Shown in pieces: positions 2,468 to 62,517 of a DNA stretch of 64,000 nucleotides. Both the position numbers and the translations under genes were made by a program. The DNA comes from a virus. Positions within the stretch are counted from its first letter, which is position 1. Each line of letters opens with the position of its first letter. The notes beneath the pieces are model-generated. The model saw only the letters and a program-made list of their open reading frames with translations, searched no databases and was not told where the DNA came from. The stretch covers positions 62,001 through 126,000 of IMG/VR virus record IMGVR_UViG_3300022926_001804, one strand, 5' to 3'.

Positions 2468-3465
2468 TTTAATGCCTCAAATCGTTGCGTTGCAACTTTG
2501 TTTTGTTTACAGTTTTCTATACACTTTGGAAAAATACCGTTTTTAATTCCTGTATATAAATTAGTATACCATTCACTATCAAAAATATCCTGTATACTAT
2601 TATGTCCATTTAGTCTATGATGTTCAGTTCCGTGATCTTTACTGTAATGTTGCCATAGACCTCTAAATCCACTCTTAGTTCCCCACCAGCAACACGGAAC
2701 AACATATCCATGATGTGTAACATATAGTCCTTGATCTTCTATTTTAGAACTAATACATCTTGGAATAACTGTTGGAACTTCTTGTTTTTTCTCAACTTTA
2801 GGGTCACTTTTATGCTGAGAGTTTTTACCTAAGTCTGCTCTTGGGCTTCCGATAAATTTTACTCTACTAAATCCTTCTTTGGCTGCAATATCTTCTATAA
2901 GATGAGCTTGATGTTCGTTATGCGAAAAATATATGAATTGCCATACAGCGTCGCCGCCGGCAGCAATATAATTTCTAAAATTTCTTTGTACTTTTTGCCA
3001 ATCAACATTTACTCTATAAATATGGTTAGTATCTTCTAATCCATCTAATCCCCAATTTACTCTAACACGACCATTTGACTCTTTTGAAATTTCTCCCAAC
3101 GTTGTCCAAAACTCATCATTACGTGTTCCGCCGTTAGTAGCAATAGAAATCTTAGGTTTGCTAGTAAACAATTCATCATTAGATAAAATCCATTTAACAA
3201 TTTCAATTAAATCAGGATTAGTAGTTGCTTCGTCGTAGTTACCACACATATGGATTAGGCGCAAATCAGTCCATTTATCTTTAGATACCCAACTTTTAAA
3301 TTGTTCTAAACTTACATACATACTATTCACATCAAAGTGATAATCCATATCAATAAGTTTATCATTAATAAATGCACGAGCACAGGCAGGACATGCCGCG
3401 TTGCAATAATTTGACATTTCAATTTGCAGTTTAGTTTGTCTTTCTACTGGTACTTGCCAACTCAT
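2464..3465 (-). CDS. Radical SAM/SPASM-like protein (tandem paralogue 1)
   Basis: A 333-residue protein with the radical SAM motif CNAACPAC at residues 21-28. A C-terminal SPASM-like cysteine set follows: an RCISSK segment, a VPCCWWG pair and a terminal CIENC. The layout is the same as the next two genes upstream (3462-4529 and 4541-5608), all with Cys near residue 18-28, an (N/T)HIYR segment and a late P-C-C-W/F motif, so the three are tandem paralogues. It overlaps the upstream gene by 4 bases. SPASM proteins usually act on ribosomal peptides or proteins, but the target here is not evident. Confidence 0.85.
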   Translation of the reverse strand: MSWQVPVERQTKLQIEMSNYCNAACPACARAFINDKLIDMDYHFDVNSMYVSLEQFKSWVSKDKWTDLRLIHMCGNYDEATTNPDLIEIVKWILSNDELFTSKPKISIATNGGTRNDEFWTTLGEISKESNGRVRVNWGLDGLEDTNHIYRVNVDWQKVQRNFRNYIAAGGDAVWQFIYFSHNEHQAHLIEDIAAKEGFSRVKFIGSPRADLGKNSQHKSDPKVEKKQEVPTVIPRCISSKIEDQGLYVTHHGYVVPCCWWGTKSGFRGLWQHYSKDHGTEHHRLNGHNSIQDIFDSEWYTNLYTGIKNGIFPKCIENCKQNKVATQRFEALK

Positions 3466-4529
3466 TCTTGTTCCACCATAACATTTTGATAGGCTTTATT
3501 AAAGCCACAACTAGCAACACACCGTTTCATATGTTTATTGTGTGACGGATTCCAGCTTTCTTCTAAAACCTTAGTATACCAAGGATGTTTCATAACTTCT
3601 TCAATGCTATGTTTTTTTAAACTATTCCATCCTGTAGAATATTCAGATAATTTTTCTAAAATGTTTTCTTTGTTCTTAAACGCACTATCCCACAAAAAAC
3701 AACAAGGCCACATCTCTTGGTTTGCATTAATAAAAATTTCGCCTTCATGAACATACTTACAAACAATAGATTTTACAACTTCTTCATCTACTTGATTAGT
3801 TTGAATTTTATTCATCAACTCTAATACTTCGTCTTTACGTGCATGTTCTTTGCTACCAGTAGTAGTAATAGTTTTTACTTCTTTAGTAACGTTTCCGCGG
3901 CCTTCTTTTTTTGCAATTTGGGCAGTCCATTGATTTAAGCTATTACGCATGCCTGTTCTAATTACAAATTTTAGTCCCAAACTTTTAGCATGTGCTTTAG
4001 CAACTTCAATTTCGTGTTCGTTATGATCAAATACAATAAAAACCCACTTAGATCTTGTATCATCACCTTTATAAGAATTTTCTGCGAACGCTTCGATATT
4101 ACGTTTTACTATATCAAACTTTGTGTTTACACGATAAATGTGATTAGTTTCTCGATGTCCGTCAATACAGAACATCATAATTAAGTCTCTTCCGTATTGT
4201 TTGCTTAGTTCACCTAGTCTATACCAACTTGCTTTAGGTGCAACGCCGCCATTAGTACTAATTGTAACATATGCGCCGCCTTCTAATAAGTATTCTACAA
4301 TTTCAACAAACTGTGGGTGAATTGCAGGATCTCCTAGTACGCCGCATAGCCTAATATCTTTATCTTTTAAATGTGCCTCGTCTGGTAATATTCTTTTTAA
4401 GTCATCAAGTGAAAAACTTGTTACTTCTAAGATGTCTCGGTTAAGTGTTCTTGCACAACCTGGGCATGCGGCATTACAATCACTTGTAATTTCCAGTTCG
4501 ATTTTGTGTATGTCATTTATGTTTATCAT
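3462..4529 (-). CDS. Radical SAM/SPASM-like protein (tandem paralogue 2)
   Basis: A 355-residue protein. CNAACPGC at residues 18-25 is the radical SAM cluster motif. The C-terminal region has the auxiliary-cluster pattern seen in its neighbours: a CKYVHEG segment, a WPCCF pair and a final CVASC. A central ETNHIYRVN segment is nearly identical to that of the neighbouring paralogues. The stop overlaps the next start by 4 bases, so it is translated in the same operon. Divergence among the three copies is large apart from the motifs, which suggests old duplication with different substrates or roles rather than recent copying. Confidence 0.85.
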   Translation of the reverse strand: MININDIHKIELEITSDCNAACPGCARTLNRDILEVTSFSLDDLKRILPDEAHLKDKDIRLCGVLGDPAIHPQFVEIVEYLLEGGAYVTISTNGGVAPKASWYRLGELSKQYGRDLIMMFCIDGHRETNHIYRVNTKFDIVKRNIEAFAENSYKGDDTRSKWVFIVFDHNEHEIEVAKAHAKSLGLKFVIRTGMRNSLNQWTAQIAKKEGRGNVTKEVKTITTTGSKEHARKDEVLELMNKIQTNQVDEEVVKSIVCKYVHEGEIFINANQEMWPCCFLWDSAFKNKENILEKLSEYSTGWNSLKKHSIEEVMKHPWYTKVLEESWNPSHNKHMKRCVASCGFNKAYQNVMVEQE

Positions 4530-4540
4530 TATATATGTAC

Positions 4541-5608
4541 TTATTTAAACTGTTCAGTGAAAGGATCAAACTCGGCGCCGCACTTTGTAGCACATACTTT
4601 TAGTTTGCCGGCATCACAACTAGGTTTATTCCAACTATCTTGTATTTCATCAAATATACCTGTAGCAAAAACTTTATCAAGACCATTACGTGCGTCTAGT
4701 GCATTTTTATCAGGAATAAAATCCCATATCTGTTCTACTTTAGGATCTTTGTGCCACCATTTATACATACGACCAGCAGTCCAGCAACAAGGCAATGCTA
4801 GTCCTTCTGCTGTAATAAAGAGGCTACCTTCTTTTTTAACTTTACATACGATAGGAGCCGCGTTAAAATAAGCATCCATACTGCCATATTTCTTGATAAT
4901 GGCTTCTTGTTTTGTAAGAGCTTTGTTTTGGTATTGTGCGTCCGGCTTTTTGAGCTCTGCTGTATCTTTGCCTTTACGGTCTTTGGCCTGATGCTTTTCT
5001 TTTTTGTTTGTCTTTGCATCTACAAATCTTCCTGTTTTCTTTTTTATAAACTTCTCACATCCCCATGCATTAGCTAACTGTTCAGCTTCTTCGACTTGAT
5101 GCTGATTGTGTTCAAATATAAGAAAGTCCCAACGTGCTCTACCGCCAGCATCGATAAACGCTCGCATGTTGCGTTCTACGTTGTCCCAATTTACCCCTTG
5201 TCTGTAAATATGATTCGTATCGCGAAGACCATCGACACTAAAAATAACAGCCCCCATTCTTCCAAAGACATAGGCCAATTCATTCCACCATTCAACATTT
5301 TTTGCTCCTGCATTTGTATTCATGCTTAACCACATCGTTGGGTTATGTTCACGAAAGTATTTGAATATTTCTAATGTGTCACGAGCAACAATAGGATCAC
5401 CTAAGTTACCACACATATACATAGTATTAAGCTGTGCAATAAACTCTGGGGAGAATATTTTTTTACAATCTTCTAATGTAAGTTCATCTAGATTAATATG
5501 AGGATTAATTCCTTCGCCATTCATATTACGGTCACACATAGGACAACTGGCTTGACAGTTTTGTGTAACTTCTAAATGAATTGATCGTATGTCGCTATAA
5601 TTATACAT
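4541..5608 (-). CDS. Radical SAM/SPASM-like protein (tandem paralogue 3)
   Basis: A 355-residue protein. The radical SAM motif CQASCPMC lies at residues 18-25. The C-terminal auxiliary-cluster pattern is VCKVKKEG, then LPCCWTAG, then CATKC. A Lys-rich linker near residues 195-235 (KKEKHQ, KDRKGKD) is specific to this copy and may bind an acidic or nucleic-acid partner; that is inference. The start is 8 bases inside the end of the upstream 83-codon ORF, so a small protein is made just ahead of it. It is related to the two genes downstream. Confidence 0.85.
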   Translation of the reverse strand: MYNYSDIRSIHLEVTQNCQASCPMCDRNMNGEGINPHINLDELTLEDCKKIFSPEFIAQLNTMYMCGNLGDPIVARDTLEIFKYFREHNPTMWLSMNTNAGAKNVEWWNELAYVFGRMGAVIFSVDGLRDTNHIYRQGVNWDNVERNMRAFIDAGGRARWDFLIFEHNQHQVEEAEQLANAWGCEKFIKKKTGRFVDAKTNKKEKHQAKDRKGKDTAELKKPDAQYQNKALTKQEAIIKKYGSMDAYFNAAPIVCKVKKEGSLFITAEGLALPCCWTAGRMYKWWHKDPKVEQIWDFIPDKNALDARNGLDKVFATGIFDEIQDSWNKPSCDAGKLKVCATKCGAEFDPFTEQFK

Positions 5609-51707: not shown

Positions 51708-52475
51708 ATGAAAGTATTTGACATTTTAACAGAATCTAAGCAAGTTGATGAAGGTCCTATTAGATTTTTAAAGAGAACATTAGGAAAAAACACAGCTATG
51801 GGCAAAGCGGCTCAGCTTGATGTAGAAATTGAACAAGAAGCTAAAAATATCTTTAAAGATTTTTACGCTGTTGCTAAAAATTCTCCTAATGGTACAATGA
51901 CAGCTAAAGGTTTAGCTGATTATCTAGTTGCTAAAGGATTTGTAAGCAAGCCTAGTGCAGTAATGTCTTATATTAATGCTGATCCTAGTATGGGTCGCAA
52001 AGTTGCTAAAGGTGCTAAAGCAGTTAATAAAGCAGTTAAAACCGGAGCAGACAAAGTAGGACAAGCGGCTAGAAGCATTAAGAAAAAACTTTCTCCTGAA
52101 CCAACAAAACTTACTCCAGATCCTCGTCAGGCTGAATTAGATCTACAAAGTATGTACAATGAAATGACCGAATCTCAACTAATGGAAGTTGATGCACAAA
52201 TTAATAAAGCAACTGCAATGAAAGCTATCAAAAAATTCGTGCAACAAGGTATGGCCGCTGGTGTTAAGTCTGGCAGAACACCAACTCAAAAGAGTAGATT
52301 TGGTGATGCACCTACAACTTCTCCTGATCCAAAAGATAAAAAAACTAAAACTAAATCTTCAGGCGGTAATAAACTAGCAGATATGGGTGTTACCGTAGAA
52401 ATTCAACAAGCTGTTGATGTTTTACGTAAAGCAGGATATGAAGTTATTGCACCAAAAGAAAAAGTAAACAGATAA
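51708..52475 (+). CDS. Lys-rich putative internal head protein
   Basis: A 255-residue, Lys-rich protein of unknown family. It begins MKVFDILTESKQVDE. T4 internal head proteins carry an N-terminal capsid-targeting sequence (start MKTYQEF) that is cut by gp21 at (L/I)-x-E, and ILTE here fits that rule. The rest is basic, with repeated Lys/Ala helices (AKAVNKAVKTGADKVGQAAR) and a low-complexity PDPKDKKTKTK stretch, as expected of a protein packed with DNA. It has an exact late promoter and strong ribosome-binding sequence, so it is probably made in quantity late. The function is inference. Confidence 0.6.
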   Translation: MKVFDILTESKQVDEGPIRFLKRTLGKNTAMGKAAQLDVEIEQEAKNIFKDFYAVAKNSPNGTMTAKGLADYLVAKGFVSKPSAVMSYINADPSMGRKVAKGAKAVNKAVKTGADKVGQAARSIKKKLSPEPTKLTPDPRQAELDLQSMYNEMTESQLMEVDAQINKATAMKAIKKFVQQGMAAGVKSGRTPTQKSRFGDAPTTSPDPKDKKTKTKSSGGNKLADMGVTVEIQQAVDVLRKAGYEVIAPKEKVNR

Positions 52476-52481
52476 ACGCTT

Positions 52482-53590
52482 TTACCAAAAATCTTTTCCA
52501 GTTTTTTTAGATTGTTCTAAGTTGTCTTTGATAACGTTGTTAATAATCTGACGATCTTCAACAGTTAATTCGTATGCTTCGATAAGAGAAACTGCTCCTC
52601 GCATCCACCAGCAAGTTTTTACTAGCTCAGTTTTAATTTCCGTTACCTGTTTTTCTAGGATTTTAACCTCGGTTTGGATTTTATCGAGGTCCCACGTTAA
52701 AATCCTTAGCCGAAAAAATTGCTTTGGTCAAACGTAACCGGAATTGAATATACTTTAGGTGCACCGGCAGCAATTTCTTCTTCGGTCGCTTCAACATCAA
52801 CAGGTGCTTGTGTAAACTTTGCTCTTTGATCTTTAATATGTTCTTGAATTTGATTAAAAGTTTTTGCTTCACAGTTTGATAAGAATTCAGTTAAATGTAT
52901 TCTGTTAGTTACTGCAACGTCATCCCCGTCGGGCTGTATTGCTGTAACACTTTCAATCATAACATTAAGATTAATATCTGTTAGTTTTCTAAAACTATCT
53001 TGAAATTGTTTAAGTTTTTGCCCGTCATCAAGTGAATTATCATTAACAATATTAAAAATTCTTTGTTGTTCAAATGCTTTAATACTTTGTTCAGTAGATG
53101 TTTTATATGATACTGGTTTAATTTCTACAGCAAACCCTTCAATTTGAAATGTATCTTCAAAAGTAGTATTTGTATATTTGTCATAAAGATTTTGCAGATT
53201 AAATTGAAAATCTTTAGTAATTTCAGTATTAGGAATCTGCGTAGTCATATCAATAGTTTCGCCAAAGCTAGCCATTCTGATTGCAATTAATATTGTATCT
53301 AAATCAATTGACGGTGTTTGCCATGCATCTTTAATAGCAGGAACACAACTCTGAATAACATCAACAGTTGCTTGACCGTTTAACAACGCATCAGGCGTTT
53401 TAAATGCAATTTCATCTCTTGCGGTCATTGCGTATACAGCAAACTCTCCTGATTCAGGAATTTCAATAGAGCCAACTGGCCAATATTTTCCTTTACTTGG
53501 AAGTCTGATGTAAATTTTTGGTTGTCTTAAGTGTTTTGCTAGTGGATTTCCACCAACGATCCCCGGTTTAGGGATATTATTATCTACCAT
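52482..53590 (-). CDS. -1 frameshift fusion: gp26-family protein plus 76-codon extension
   Basis: If ribosomes slip back one base at 52718-52712, the gp26-family frame continues past its stop for 76 codons to TAA at 52484-52482, giving about 369 residues. The added part opens RLRILTWDLDKIQTEV and ends GKDFW. It is amphipathic, with a coiled-coil-like first half (KILEKQVTEIKTEL). It has no ATG, GTG or TTG before a Met at extension residue 36, so it lacks a start of its own. It fills the space up to the convergent gene, leaving six bases. The arrangement resembles G/G-T tail chaperones. Confidence 0.65.
52658..52718 (-). promoter_or_regulatory. -1 programmed frameshift signal
   Basis: On the minus strand: slippery heptamer T-TTT-TTC at 52718-52712 in the gp26-family frame; a 6-base spacer GGCTAA containing the stop; then GGATTTTA (52705-52698). 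That arm can pair with TAAAATCC at 52683-52676, and ACCTCG in its loop (52690-52685) can pair with CGAGGT (52671-52666), an H-type pseudoknot. Alternatively the arm pairs with a second TAAAATCC at 52665-52658, enclosing the same 6-bp helix in a long hairpin. Confidence 0.7.
52706..53590 (-). CDS. 26: gp26-family baseplate hub/tail assembly protein
   Basis: A 294-residue protein. RLPSKGKYWPVG (about 29-40) and YAMTARDEIAFKTPDALLNG (about 53-72) match the T4 baseplate hub family that includes gp26, whose members start with L-P-S-x-G-K and M-T-A-R-D-E. The C-terminus is acidic. T4 gp26 is a hub component that works with gp51 and gp28 in hub assembly with the tape measure gp29. Here the gene is divergent from, and 76 bases away from, the tape-measure gene. 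CATAAATA at 53632-53639 is its likely late promoter. The last codons form a frameshift site. Confidence 0.75.
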   Translation of the reverse strand: MVDNNIPKPGIVGGNPLAKHLRQPKIYIRLPSKGKYWPVGSIEIPESGEFAVYAMTARDEIAFKTPDALLNGQATVDVIQSCVPAIKDAWQTPSIDLDTILIAIRMASFGETIDMTTQIPNTEITKDFQFNLQNLYDKYTNTTFEDTFQIEGFAVEIKPVSYKTSTEQSIKAFEQQRIFNIVNDNSLDDGQKLKQFQDSFRKLTDINLNVMIESVTAIQPDGDDVAVTNRIHLTEFLSNCEAKTFNQIQEHIKDQRAKFTQAPVDVEATEEEIAAGAPKVYSIPVTFDQSNFFG

Positions 53591-53666: not shown

Positions 53667-55970
53667 ATGGCAGTAAAAATTGATATCCCCGGAGTAGGCG
53701 AAGTTACAGCAGAAAATGCGGCTTCAGAAGCTACTTTACGTGAAATACTTAAAACATTAGGTGGGAAATCTTACGGCATGGACGGTGGTGGCGGCATGTC
53801 TGGTACTGGCACTAATGCAGAAGAAGCTGCCAAACAAGTTAAAAAACACGGTGACGCTAGTGAAGAAGCTGGTGTTCAAGTAGAAGGCTTTGGAGCAAAA
53901 TTAGACGGATTTGTAGGAGGTATATGGAATACTTTTACAGCCGCAATTGGCGCCGTTGTTGGTTCTACTGTAGGATTAGGCTTTGAATTATTAAAAGGCG
54001 GAAATCAACTTAGTGATTTTGCTCAACATTTACCTATTCCAGGATTAACAGCATTTTCTGGATTAATCGACGGACAAATAAATTTATTTAGAGAGTTATC
54101 TCAGTCAGGTGCAAGTTTTGGCAACAATATGTTTGAAATTACACGCATCGCAGGTAATGCGGCAATACCACAAGAAGAATTTGCTGAATTATTGCGAACA
54201 CAATCATCAAGTTTAAGACTTTTTGGAAATAGTGTTAATGATGGTGCTCGAAATTTTGCTTCTATGTCAAAAGAAATGCGTCAAGGCGGAATTGGTCCTC
54301 GCTTAATGGCAATGGGATTTACCTCGCAAGAATTAAATGAAAACTTTATTGCATACAATGAAATGATGACAGTTTCTGGGCGTCGCCAGTTTATGACTAA
54401 TGCCCAGCTTATTGAAGGATCACAGAACTATTCATTAGAACTAGATAAAATATCCAAACTTACTGGTAAATCTAGAGAGCAACTTCAAGAAGAAATGCGT
54501 CAAAAGAATATGGACATTAGACGCCAAATGGCAATTGCAAAATATGGAGAAGAATATGCTCTTAGATTACAACAAGCGGCTGAAGTAGGCGGCCCAGCGT
54601 TTGAAGCAGCCATTCTTGATATGGCTGACGGTGTTGAAAACGATCCTTTGACACGACAGTTGATGGCAAACAACGAAGCATTTCGAAATGGCATTAATGA
54701 CGTTCAGAATATGACTGCTGAAGAGTTTACTAACTTTGCCGCTAGTGTTAGACAATCAGGTATGGACTATGCCAATAGTATGGGCGAGAACGCAGTCCAA
54801 GCTTCTATTGCAAACGGAACTGCGGTTGGAGAACTATTTCAGTTAACAGGTGCACTTGGTAGAGCAACTGGAACAGTTGAAGGAGGAGTATCAGCTGAAC
54901 AGCAAGCACGAGACGATGCTACTGCGGCTGTTGCAACTTTTGCTGAAACTATTAACGATGTAAGAGGAAGACTTCAAGTTGATCTATTAGACAGTAATAT
55001 CTTCCAAGATCTTAAAAACGGCCTAGCAAGTATAATTCCTTCTATCGGCGAAGCTAACAGTATGTATGATGATATGAAGGGCTTTTTTATGTCTAATATT
55101 TTTCCTGCACTAGACGATATGTGGACTTGGCTTAAAACTGACGGCCTAAATATGTTACAAGAGAGTATGGAATCAGCATGGAACTGGTTAAAGACTGACG
55201 GCGTTGAACTAATGGACAGTGCATTTACTAAAATGACAGAAGCATGGAATTGGTTAAGTTCAGGCGAAGGTTATACTATGATGCAAAATGCCATAACTGG
55301 ATTAACAGAGCTATGGGATTCGTGGAAGCCATCGATTATGGGATTCTTTGAAAACTTAACAAGTGCTGAAGGTAGAGCAGAAATATGGCAAAGTATTGTT
55401 GATGGTGCAAAAAGTGCCCTTTCGGCAATATTTACAGGCGTTGTATCTATGTTAGGATGGGATCAAATTGGACCTACTTATGAAGATTTAAAACAATCAG
55501 TTATTGATACTTTAGTTGATTGGAAAAACAAGTTTGTAGAAATGTTTACTTGGGAAAATATACGAAGTACATTTACTATTGAAAACATTGGTACAGCATT
55601 AGGAAATGCTGTTAGAGGTGTTTATAACTGGATTACAGGGTTGTTTGATTTTGATTTTGGTGGAATGATAAGTTCTGTAATACCAGACTGGGCAAAACGT
55701 TGGTTACCAGACAGCTGGTTTGGTGGGCCTTCTTCTAATCCTAGTGGATCACCCTCACCTAGTCCTAGTAGTGCAATACCAGAAGCTGACACATCGTCAA
55801 GTTCTGCTCCTTCACCAACTAATGATCCAGCAATGCGAACTGCTACCAATGCCACATCTCCATCTAATAATCCTGTAAGTGACTTAAATACTAATACTGC
55901 AAGGATGGTAGCATTATTAGAACAGCAAAATAGACTATTGCAGAGAATGGACGGTAACTTATATGGTTAA
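53667..55970 (+). CDS. Tape measure protein (gp29 role)
   Basis: A 767-residue protein. The N-terminal 60 residues are followed by a Gly/Ala hydrophobic region (about 85-115: IWNTFTAAIGAVVGSTVGLG) and a long helical body, the usual pattern of tape measures. Residues about 485-560 carry three or four tandem repeats of a Trp-rich unit (W-x-WLKTDG, then EAWNWL). Residues 690-740 are a Pro/Ser/Asn linker and the end (LLEQQNRLLQRMDGNL) is a short coiled coil. It lies beside the gp26-family gene and ahead of the portal. No clear likeness to T4 gp29 sequence; the role is from architecture and context. Confidence 0.75.
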   Translation: MAVKIDIPGVGEVTAENAASEATLREILKTLGGKSYGMDGGGGMSGTGTNAEEAAKQVKKHGDASEEAGVQVEGFGAKLDGFVGGIWNTFTAAIGAVVGSTVGLGFELLKGGNQLSDFAQHLPIPGLTAFSGLIDGQINLFRELSQSGASFGNNMFEITRIAGNAAIPQEEFAELLRTQSSSLRLFGNSVNDGARNFASMSKEMRQGGIGPRLMAMGFTSQELNENFIAYNEMMTVSGRRQFMTNAQLIEGSQNYSLELDKISKLTGKSREQLQEEMRQKNMDIRRQMAIAKYGEEYALRLQQAAEVGGPAFEAAILDMADGVENDPLTRQLMANNEAFRNGINDVQNMTAEEFTNFAASVRQSGMDYANSMGENAVQASIANGTAVGELFQLTGALGRATGTVEGGVSAEQQARDDATAAVATFAETINDVRGRLQVDLLDSNIFQDLKNGLASIIPSIGEANSMYDDMKGFFMSNIFPALDDMWTWLKTDGLNMLQESMESAWNWLKTDGVELMDSAFTKMTEAWNWLSSGEGYTMMQNAITGLTELWDSWKPSIMGFFENLTSAEGRAEIWQSIVDGAKSALSAIFTGVVSMLGWDQIGPTYEDLKQSVIDTLVDWKNKFVEMFTWENIRSTFTIENIGTALGNAVRGVYNWITGLFDFDFGGMISSVIPDWAKRWLPDSWFGGPSSNPSGSPSPSPSSAIPEADTSSSSAPSPTNDPAMRTATNATSPSNNPVSDLNTNTARMVALLEQQNRLLQRMDGNLYG

Positions 55971-61353: not shown

Positions 61354-62517
61354 ATGTCAGAACTATTTGAGAGTCGCTGGCAGGATACCAAAAATGCACT
61401 TCTTGAAGGCCTTGAAGGCAACAAGAAAGCTGTAATGGGTGTTACTCTAGAAAATACTAAAAGGTATTTGGCAGAGAATGCGACAGCAGGTGCAACTTCT
61501 GCAGGTAATGTTGCTACACTAAACAGAGTTATCCTTCCGGTAATTAGACGAGTTATGCCAACTGTTATCGCCAACGAATTAGTTGGTGTACAGCCCATGA
61601 CAGGTCCAGTGGGTCAAATCCACACACTAAGAGTACGCTACGCAGATTCATTTGATGATGTAACTGCTGGTGAAGAAGCTCTATCACCATTCAAAATTGG
61701 TGTTGGCTACAGTGGCGGCGGTTCTACCGACAAAGCTGATGCAACAGCAACACTTGAAGGTGCCGCTGGTAAGAGAATGTCTATCCAGATCTTAAAGCAA
61801 ACAGTAGAAGCAAAAACCAGAAAGCTATCAGCTCGCTGGACTTTTGAATCTGCTCAAGATGCACAAGCCCAACAAGGCATTGACATCGAAGCTGAGATCA
61901 TGGCAGCTCTTGCACAGGAGATTACAGCTGAAATCGATCAAGAAGTACTTGCTTCTTTACGTTCACTAGCTGGAACTGCTGAATCAGACGTACAATACGA
62001 TCAGTCATCTGTAAGTGGTACTGCCACTTTCGTTGGCGATGAGCATGCGGCACTAGCTGTTATGATCAACCGTGTTGCAAACAAGATTGCCGCTCGTACA
62101 CGTCGTGGCGCAGGTAACTATGCAGTGGTTTCACCATATGCATTGACTATCCTACAGTCCGCAACAACTTCTGCGTTCGCAAGAACAACTGAAGGTACAT
62201 TCGAAGCACCAACTAACACTAAGATGGTTGGTACATTGAACGGCGCGATGAAAGTCTACGTTGATGCATACGCATCAGACGCAACTGACGTACTAGTTGG
62301 ATACAAAGGATCAAGCGAATCAGACGCACCAGCGTTCTACGCTCCTTACATTCCTCTAATGTCAAGTGGTGTTGTGTTAGACCCAGCATCATTCGAGCCT
62401 GTCGTATCATTTATGACACGTTACGGATATGTTGAGCTATCAAACGTTGCTTCTTCACTTGGTAATGCCGCTGACTACTTAGGTAGAATCAGTATTGCCA
62501 ATGTAAGCTTCAGCTAA
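61354..62517 (+). CDS. 23: Major capsid protein gp23
   Basis: A 387-residue protein, shorter than T4 gp23 (521) and most cyanophage forms, suggesting a lack of the insertion domain. Typical gp23 blocks are LPVIRRVMPTVIANELVGVQPMTGP (given as positions about 67-91), ARWTFESAQDAQA, IAARTRRGAGN and PYIPLMSSGVV. It is preceded by AAGGAG and followed by a strong terminator. The codon use is less AT-biased than in the fibre genes, as expected for the most abundant virion protein. Confidence 0.95.
   Translation: MSELFESRWQDTKNALLEGLEGNKKAVMGVTLENTKRYLAENATAGATSAGNVATLNRVILPVIRRVMPTVIANELVGVQPMTGPVGQIHTLRVRYADSFDDVTAGEEALSPFKIGVGYSGGGSTDKADATATLEGAAGKRMSIQILKQTVEAKTRKLSARWTFESAQDAQAQQGIDIEAEIMAALAQEITAEIDQEVLASLRSLAGTAESDVQYDQSSVSGTATFVGDEHAALAVMINRVANKIAARTRRGAGNYAVVSPYALTILQSATTSAFARTTEGTFEAPTNTKMVGTLNGAMKVYVDAYASDATDVLVGYKGSSESDAPAFYAPYIPLMSSGVVLDPASFEPVVSFMTRYGYVELSNVASSLGNAADYLGRISIANVSFS

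Follow-up and report, generated by a model that had tools for sequence, protein, structure and literature searches.

In phage lambda, the tail assembly chaperones (TACs) gpG and gpGT coat the tape measure protein, bring in the tail tube subunits and leave afterwards. The lambda pair is marked by a conserved slippery heptamer and by an extension that needs no start codon of its own. TAC genes of T4-like phages have reportedly been identified by Vladimirov, Gautam and Davidson (Virology 2022). Here we describe a locus with the same two marks as the lambda pair in a window of 64,000 nucleotides, which comprises positions 62,001 to 126,000 of the IMG/VR virus record IMGVR_UViG_3300022926_001804 and to which all coordinates below refer. 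A gene of the T4 gp26 family carries the in-frame heptamer T_TTT_TTC near its end, and the −1 frame remains open beyond its stop codon. Judged from sequence comparison, this gene is very probably a TAC gene of a jumbo T4-like phage, which would give rise to a short form (TAC-N) and a long form (TAC-NC) by −1 frameshifting and would act like lambda G/GT.

The general scheme by which frameshifting yields TAC-N and TAC-NC has been described (PMC12846349), and the same source presents a TAC locus of the Vandenendeviridae and Andersonviridae which, like the locus in the window, combines a conserved −1 extension with a poly-T motif at the end of TAC-N. These are other families, however, their motif is an invariant GTTTTT, and the likeness is drawn from the published description (PMC12846349). 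Poly-T slippery sequences in T4-like TAC-N genes are also reported there with reference to Vladimirov et al. 2022 (PMC12846349), and some T4-like phages are said to carry a short gene together with a longer fused gene (PMC10885494). Since T4-like TAC genes and poly-T sites are in print, this kind of system is already known, and the view taken in a preliminary description of the window, that no such description was known for T4-like phages, had to be abandoned. A description of frameshifting in jumbo phages was not found in the open-licence literature of PubMed Central (PMC). What the present comparison adds is that the element occurs in every jumbo-type relative examined, both from IMG/VR and among named phages, and that it is unmarked in 15 annotated records. 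Two further points set the locus apart from lambda. Its TAC-N belongs to the T4 gp26 family, sequence kinship to lambda gpG being neither tested nor claimed, and the gene and its large neighbour point in opposite directions, unlike the in-line layout of the lambda type.

The 294-codon frame ends with AGC AAT TTT TTC GGC TAA, which places the heptamer in frame, read from 52718 to 52712, just as the preliminary description had it. The 76 open codons of the −1 frame and the distance of six bases between their end and the convergent gene's stop agree with that description as well (Table 1). Early start codons are indeed missing from the extension, but its first ATG, GTG or TTG is codon 37, so the start-free run counts 36 codons and not 35. 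The 0-frame protein matched PF12322 with 41.9 bits (cut-off 24.5) and phrog_150, labeled 'baseplate hub', with an expectation value (E) of 5.3e-16. Its AlphaFold model has a mean confidence (pLDDT) of 83.6, and the BFVD entries that it matched include gp26 of Aeromonas phage 25 as well as T4-like hub assembly proteins. The extension itself gave matches in Pfam (SKA1) that were all under their cut-offs, and three near-chance matches in PHROGs, phrog_634 not among them. The record from which the window was taken measures 145,946 bases and contains a single PF12322 match. No match to phrog_634 was found in these 145,946 bases; as the record may be a fragment, this leaves room for a separate gp51 elsewhere in the whole genome.

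Table 1. Coordinates of the features at the frameshift locus and beside it
Feature	Position	Strand	Basis or remark
gp26-family gene, 0 frame, 294 codons plus stop; putative short form (TAC-N)	52706..53590	-	ORF list, PF12322, phrog_150, AlphaFold model
Slippery heptamer T_TTT_TTC, in frame, 3 bases ahead of the 0-frame stop	52712..52718	-	Sequence, conservation, codon control
−1 frame extension, 76 codons; putative gp51-like C-terminus of TAC-NC, the long form	52485..52712	-	Open frame, purifying selection, profile alignment
Stop codon of the extension	52482..52484	-	Separated by six bases from the end of ORF 51708..52475, which is convergent
Predicted hairpin, possible stimulator; 11-bp stem, arms 52706..52696 and 52667..52657	52657..52706	-	Folding; 5-nt spacer after the heptamer
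Divergent neighbour, 767 aa, possible tape measure	53667..55970	+	Kept beside the pair in close relatives

The frameshift reading draws direct support, at the level of sequence, from the conserved heptamer, the conserved coding −1 frame, the fact that several lineages are without a usable start codon, and the kinship of the 0-frame protein with T4 gp26. Alignment with relatives, the check put forward in the preliminary description, spoke in its favor, with the heptamer and the extension kept down to 34% protein identity and then in wider sets. Specifically, 33 IMG/VR loci were found, 32 of which were counted because one (L006) is cut off ahead of the stop codon. In all 32, T_TTT_TTC stood in frame close to the stop and was followed by an open −1 extension of comparable length; six are identical to the window, and 26 share 34-52% identity with it in their best segment. 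When the phage collection was searched at the protein level, 61 records came up; the element was present in each of the 16 named phages examined as representatives, as T_TTT_TTC in 14 and as T_TTT_TTT in XacN1 and CM1. This named set spans Agrobacterium phage Atu_ph07, Sinorhizobium phage Phosso, RaK2, 121Q, CBB, GAP32, Pseudomonas phage 30-2, Vibrio phage 2.275 and Salicola phage SCTP-2. Across the named relatives the heptamer keeps its position, while the 0-frame stop drifts from 3 to 33 bases past it. The extension of Pseudomonas phage 30-2 contains not a single ATG, GTG or TTG. In the stretches examined, a joined gene is marked in none of the 15 annotated records, the sixteenth being unannotated. 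When the 26 extensions of set A1 were compared with PHROGs, nine (Rak2-like extensions) matched phrog_18291, a family of unknown function, and phrog_634 was not among the 25 families listed out of 37. The overall comparison table has 131 rows, without L053, L054 and the T4-type records, and loci L148-L165 were counted only in a separate set of 18.

Two side observations concern the same relatives. In most of the named jumbo relatives, gp26 bears two cysteines in a CxxC-like arrangement towards its end; this pair is missing from the window protein and from several near relatives. Furthermore, a distant gp26 relative in the uncultured phage LR756511 (595 kb; locus L054) has T_TTT_TTC 69 bases ahead of its stop, with the −1 frame open over a gp51-like stretch. 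This suggests that the element reaches very large phages.

The arrangement of heptamer and extension is real and lies far beyond chance. The terminal Phe-Phe pair is encoded as T_TTT_TTC in 91 and as T_TTT_TTT in two of the 93 distinct gp26 proteins, whereas the 64 internal Phe-Phe contexts of the same genes contain T_TTT_TTC not once and T_TTT_TTT twice. The residue ahead of the terminal pair varies (N, S, R, H, Y, D, A or L), and yet the last base of its codon is always T. With 27 representatives below 60% identity and the codon usage of each, the probability that the terminal pair would be encoded in this way came to ∼10^-16.5, a rough order of magnitude in view of shared ancestry. By comparison of these codons, the heptamer site is constrained at the level of its bases. 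The extension was assessed in the same 27 representatives: a −1 open run of the observed length arose in base-shuffled extensions with a probability of 0.0005 to 0.047. Substitution patterns were obtained from 11 pairs of extensions, 10 of which had equal length, and in 9 of these 10 the changes peaked at the third positions of the −1 frame. Rates were usable in eight pairs, one other pair having two changes only and another being saturated; nonsynonymous rates (dN) were 0.02-0.28 and synonymous rates (dS) 0.30-4.2. The pattern of substitutions indicates that the extension evolves as a protein, under purifying selection.

Of the 54 ORFs of at least 100 codons in all six frames of the window, two combine a slippery heptamer within their final 15 codons with a long −1 extension. 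The second candidate, ORF 4506..4871, was rejected as an artefact, since it lies antisense to the 355-aa ORF 4541..5608, which resembles a radical-SAM gene; this antisense ORF mimics a frameshift pair. ORF 4541..5608 and ORF 3462..4529, both on the minus strand, are tandem 355-aa genes with CxxxCxxC near the N-terminus, a motif that looks like radical SAM.

The same heptamer at the same Phe-Phe pair, followed by the same −1 ORF, was present in all 80 cyanophage-type loci considered, which were the best 80 of 591; in two of them the contig ends inside the −1 ORF. In Synechococcus phage Sf-FS3 this ORF is the 63-aa 'baseplate hub assembly catalyst', in other words gp51. The heptamer, the position of the Phe-Phe pair and the −1 ORF are therefore common to the window and the cyanophage-type phages. 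The two differ in that the latter usually have an ATG just past the stop codon, whereas the window has none near it, and this ATG is why the −1 ORF has been annotated as a gene there. The heptamer was also found in 17 of the 18 loci of the further set (L148-L165), and the remaining one, L164, has no heptamer and a frame that ends early.

Conceivably, the extension could be a separate small gene, gp51, with translation beginning at a start codon of its own or through re-initiation coupled to termination of gp26, the heptamer being incidental. In cyanophages and several jumbo phages it has indeed been annotated as a separate gene. An ATG lies two bases past the stop codon in most cyanophage-type loci and overlaps the TGA in Phosso and Atu_ph07, and Pseudomonas phage Cygsa01 lacks the heptamer yet has an ATG overlapping the stop region. 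This explanation fits poorly with the window, where the first start comes as late as codon 37, and with phage 30-2, where there is none. In 15 loci of the 18-locus set no start codon precedes the conserved part of the extension, the first one falling within it, which makes a separate gene unlikely there, and at L160 the contig ends before any start codon is reached. In some Rak2-like phages, moreover, the 0-frame stop is located 33 nucleotides past the heptamer and hence inside the extension. As a separate gene would also leave the fixed Phe-Phe codons unexplained, we consider this alternative improbable.

Both the T run itself and the Phe-Phe motif invite other explanations of the conserved heptamer. 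The long form might arise from messenger RNA of altered length through transcriptional slippage on the run, since the conserved element is a homopolymer of six T, and of seven in XacN1 and CM1. In 91 of 93 genes, however, the run is followed by C, and it keeps a fixed register to the 0-frame codons, which is what tandem tRNA slippage would need; six bases are also short for known transcriptional slippage. We regard this possibility as very improbable. It may also be argued that a Phe-Phe protein motif yields the heptamer by chance and that the overlap is a relict from which no fused product is made, given that the pair is kept in T4 gp26 as well. As T4 encodes it as TTC TTT, the protein motif has no need of the heptamer. 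All 93 distinct genes with a −1 extension nevertheless carry the heptamer or T_TTT_TTT, internal Phe-Phe pairs use other codons, and the extension is under purifying selection, so that a chance origin is scarcely credible. We therefore retain the reading of the locus as a TAC-N/TAC-NC pair expressed through −1 frameshifting.

The relation of this pair to T4 can be traced through both halves of the long form. T4 gp26 and the window protein belong to the same Pfam and PHROG family, and T4 gp26 keeps the Phe-Phe pair in the sequence EFFELL, the heptamer being gone. T4 gp51 matched PF12322 over residues 1-201 and, over residues 147-246, phrog_634, to which cyanophage gp51 belongs, its C-terminal part thereby matching the cyanophage extension. 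On the basis of these matches, T4 gp51 looks like an in-frame version of the long form, in which a gp26-like domain is followed by a C-terminal part related to cyanophage gp51. Cyanophage gp51 is described as having ∼20% of the length of T4 gp51, without the first ∼200 residues (PMC3037559). Full-length profiles were built from proteins fused in silico (0 frame plus extension). The alignment of the jumbo with the cyanophage fused proteins crossed the junction with E 7e-19, and that of the cyanophage fused proteins with T4 gp51 did so with E 1.5e-17. T4 gene 51 is located on the opposite strand from gene 26. T4 thus has two forms from two genes on opposite strands and no heptamer, whereas the window has one gene whose slippery site would be read both ways.

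T4 gp26 and gp51 are listed as hub assembly chaperones (PMC3004832), and gp26, gp51 and gp28 are all called tape measure protein assembly chaperones in the record of Acinetobacter phage Stupor. Stupor is one of the phages examined out of 1275 records, together with Aeromonas phage 31, Cygsa01, IC12 and Sf-FS3, plus T4. It is quite likely that −1 frameshifting between gp26 and gp51 is the ancestral route to the chaperone pair in T4-related phages with contractile tails, including both cyanophages and jumbo phages. The exception would then be T4 with its close relatives, which lost the heptamer and came to divide the job between two genes, gene 26 and its long in-frame copy, gene 51. The earlier proposal that the long form possibly replaces gp51 is favored by the domain layout of T4 gp51, whereas the link of the jumbo extension to T4 gp51 is weaker and runs through the cyanophages. 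As a separate observation, Cygsa01 (L053 2072..2982) has no heptamer and a gp51-like ORF in the −1 frame, the ATG of which overlaps the gp26 stop. Coupled translation may operate instead of frameshifting in this phage, which would be a third solution.

Several results weigh against parts of this reading. Compared with T4 gp51 directly, the jumbo fused profile aligned over 37 columns of the gp26-like part with a probability of 60%, and the junction was not aligned. The search of the extension against gp51, which the preliminary description had also proposed, gave a mixed outcome, with a moderate probability of 48% for the cyanophage gp51 extensions and a weak 11% for the end of T4 gp51. A direct link between the jumbo extension and T4 gp51 is thus not carried by direct profile comparisons, and as these fall short, the cyanophage sequences serve as a bridge, together with the register. 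The extension alone retrieved four phage records by tblastn, from which it follows that the extension diverges fast. The heptamer is lacking in the gp26 homologues of T4, Stupor, Aeromonas phage 31 and Cygsa01. Downstream of the heptamer, folding scores of z < -2 were obtained in 16 of 47 relatives (12 only of the cyanophage-type set being folded) against 22 of 128 control windows inside genes. At the structural level, Foldseek gave no match in the Protein Data Bank (PDB) for the gp26 model at E 0.001, and when the Foldseek matches of the gp51-type model were re-examined with VIA-align, all rows stayed below Z 5, the best (Z 4.8) being an unrelated protein. Naming the divergent neighbour the tape measure is unsupported by PHROGs, Pfam or the phage collection. 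Finally, the GenBank label of the CBB homologue CBB_250 is 'structural protein' and genetic studies have placed T4 gp26 in the hub (PMC3004832), neither of which would be expected of a pure chaperone.

The preliminary description had also pointed to a spacer of six bases and to pairing arms after the heptamer. An 11-bp stem was indeed found in the window, with the arms AGGATTTTAAC and GTTAAAATCCT, but its spacer has five nucleotides, and the structure is not consistent across the jumbo relatives. The window fold gave z = -2.93 over 64 nucleotides and -1.47 over 79, so its support depends on the stretch that is folded. In the jumbo relatives the downstream fold shifts in place and in strength. 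A 9-bp hairpin recurs in the cyanophage-type loci; across 35 sequences, 90% of its cells were paired, and in one base pair both partners had changed, which lends it weak support. A pseudoknot or conserved hairpin was rejected as a defining part of the element, as the fold is inconsistent across the jumbo relatives. According to these predictions, downstream structure is possibly a helper in the window and in the cyanophages.

As to the surroundings of the gene, the divergent neighbour was found by tblastn in 30 of 49 loci (L001-L050 without L036), namely in 30 of the 33 from IMG/VR, seven of these being identical to the window, and in none of the 16 named phages. It had no match in the phage collection, but showed a weak pairwise match to gp597 of 121Q, the family of which, phrog_14121, is labeled 'virion structural protein'. 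The RaK2 counterpart is annotated as similar to a tape measure; for Atu_ph07, a different gene, gp701, is reported to encode the tape measure (PMC6102473). A large neighbour is conserved in the IMG/VR relatives, and the tape-measure identity put forward initially is suggested by the RaK2 annotation only. Among the 55 proteins detected in the CBB virion, CBB_250 (gp26) and CBB_249 (the extension ORF) are missing, and the neighbour CBB_251 is represented by 29 peptides (PMC5259590). This absence fits a chaperone, albeit weakly, as it concerns one phage and is a non-detection.

Structural models provided some further leads. In the model of a T4-type gp51, the extra C-terminal part (residues 206-248) is helical. 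The gp51-type model matched gp51- and gp26-like proteins in BFVD and, weakly (E 3.4e-3), the 'tape measure chaperone' of Citrobacter phage Moon; a phmmer search revealed no solved chain for T4 gp51. The gp26 fold also matched large uncharacterised BFVD proteins with E 7e-6 to 2e-3, from Erwinia phage Special G (539 aa), Ralstonia phages RSF1 (507 aa) and RP12 (548 aa), and Erwinia phage phiEaH2 (686 aa). To judge by these models, the proteins may be unnamed tail assembly chaperones.

Taken together, the locus could work as follows. Most ribosomes would halt at the TAA and release the short form TAC-N of 294 aa, which would be the major product. A minority would slip back by one base while tRNA-Phe is on T_TTT_TTC, read TTT TTT instead, and continue for 76 codons to make the long form TAC-NC of 369 residues. 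The C-terminal part of this long form would be the counterpart of cyanophage gp51 and, through it, of the end of T4 gp51. Both forms would coat the tape measure protein, recruit the tail tube subunits during assembly and then depart. We infer the slippage and its efficiency, the correspondence between the extension and the end of T4 gp51, and the chaperone action, the latter from lambda-type TACs and because T4 gp26 and gp51 are listed as hub assembly chaperones.

The finding corrects the annotation of jumbo phages and cyanophages, in which the second half of the chaperone is either missed or taken for a separate gene. It also offers a simple reading of why cyanophage gp51 is missing the first 200 residues of T4 gp51. 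The heptamer could be used to search large families of environmental phages for tail chaperones. Together with its known exceptions, the element also offers natural test pairs for the way in which phages set the proportion of the short to the long chaperone. If frameshifting is indeed the ancestral route, the 'hub assembly catalyst' gp51 of T4 would be a frozen frameshift product.
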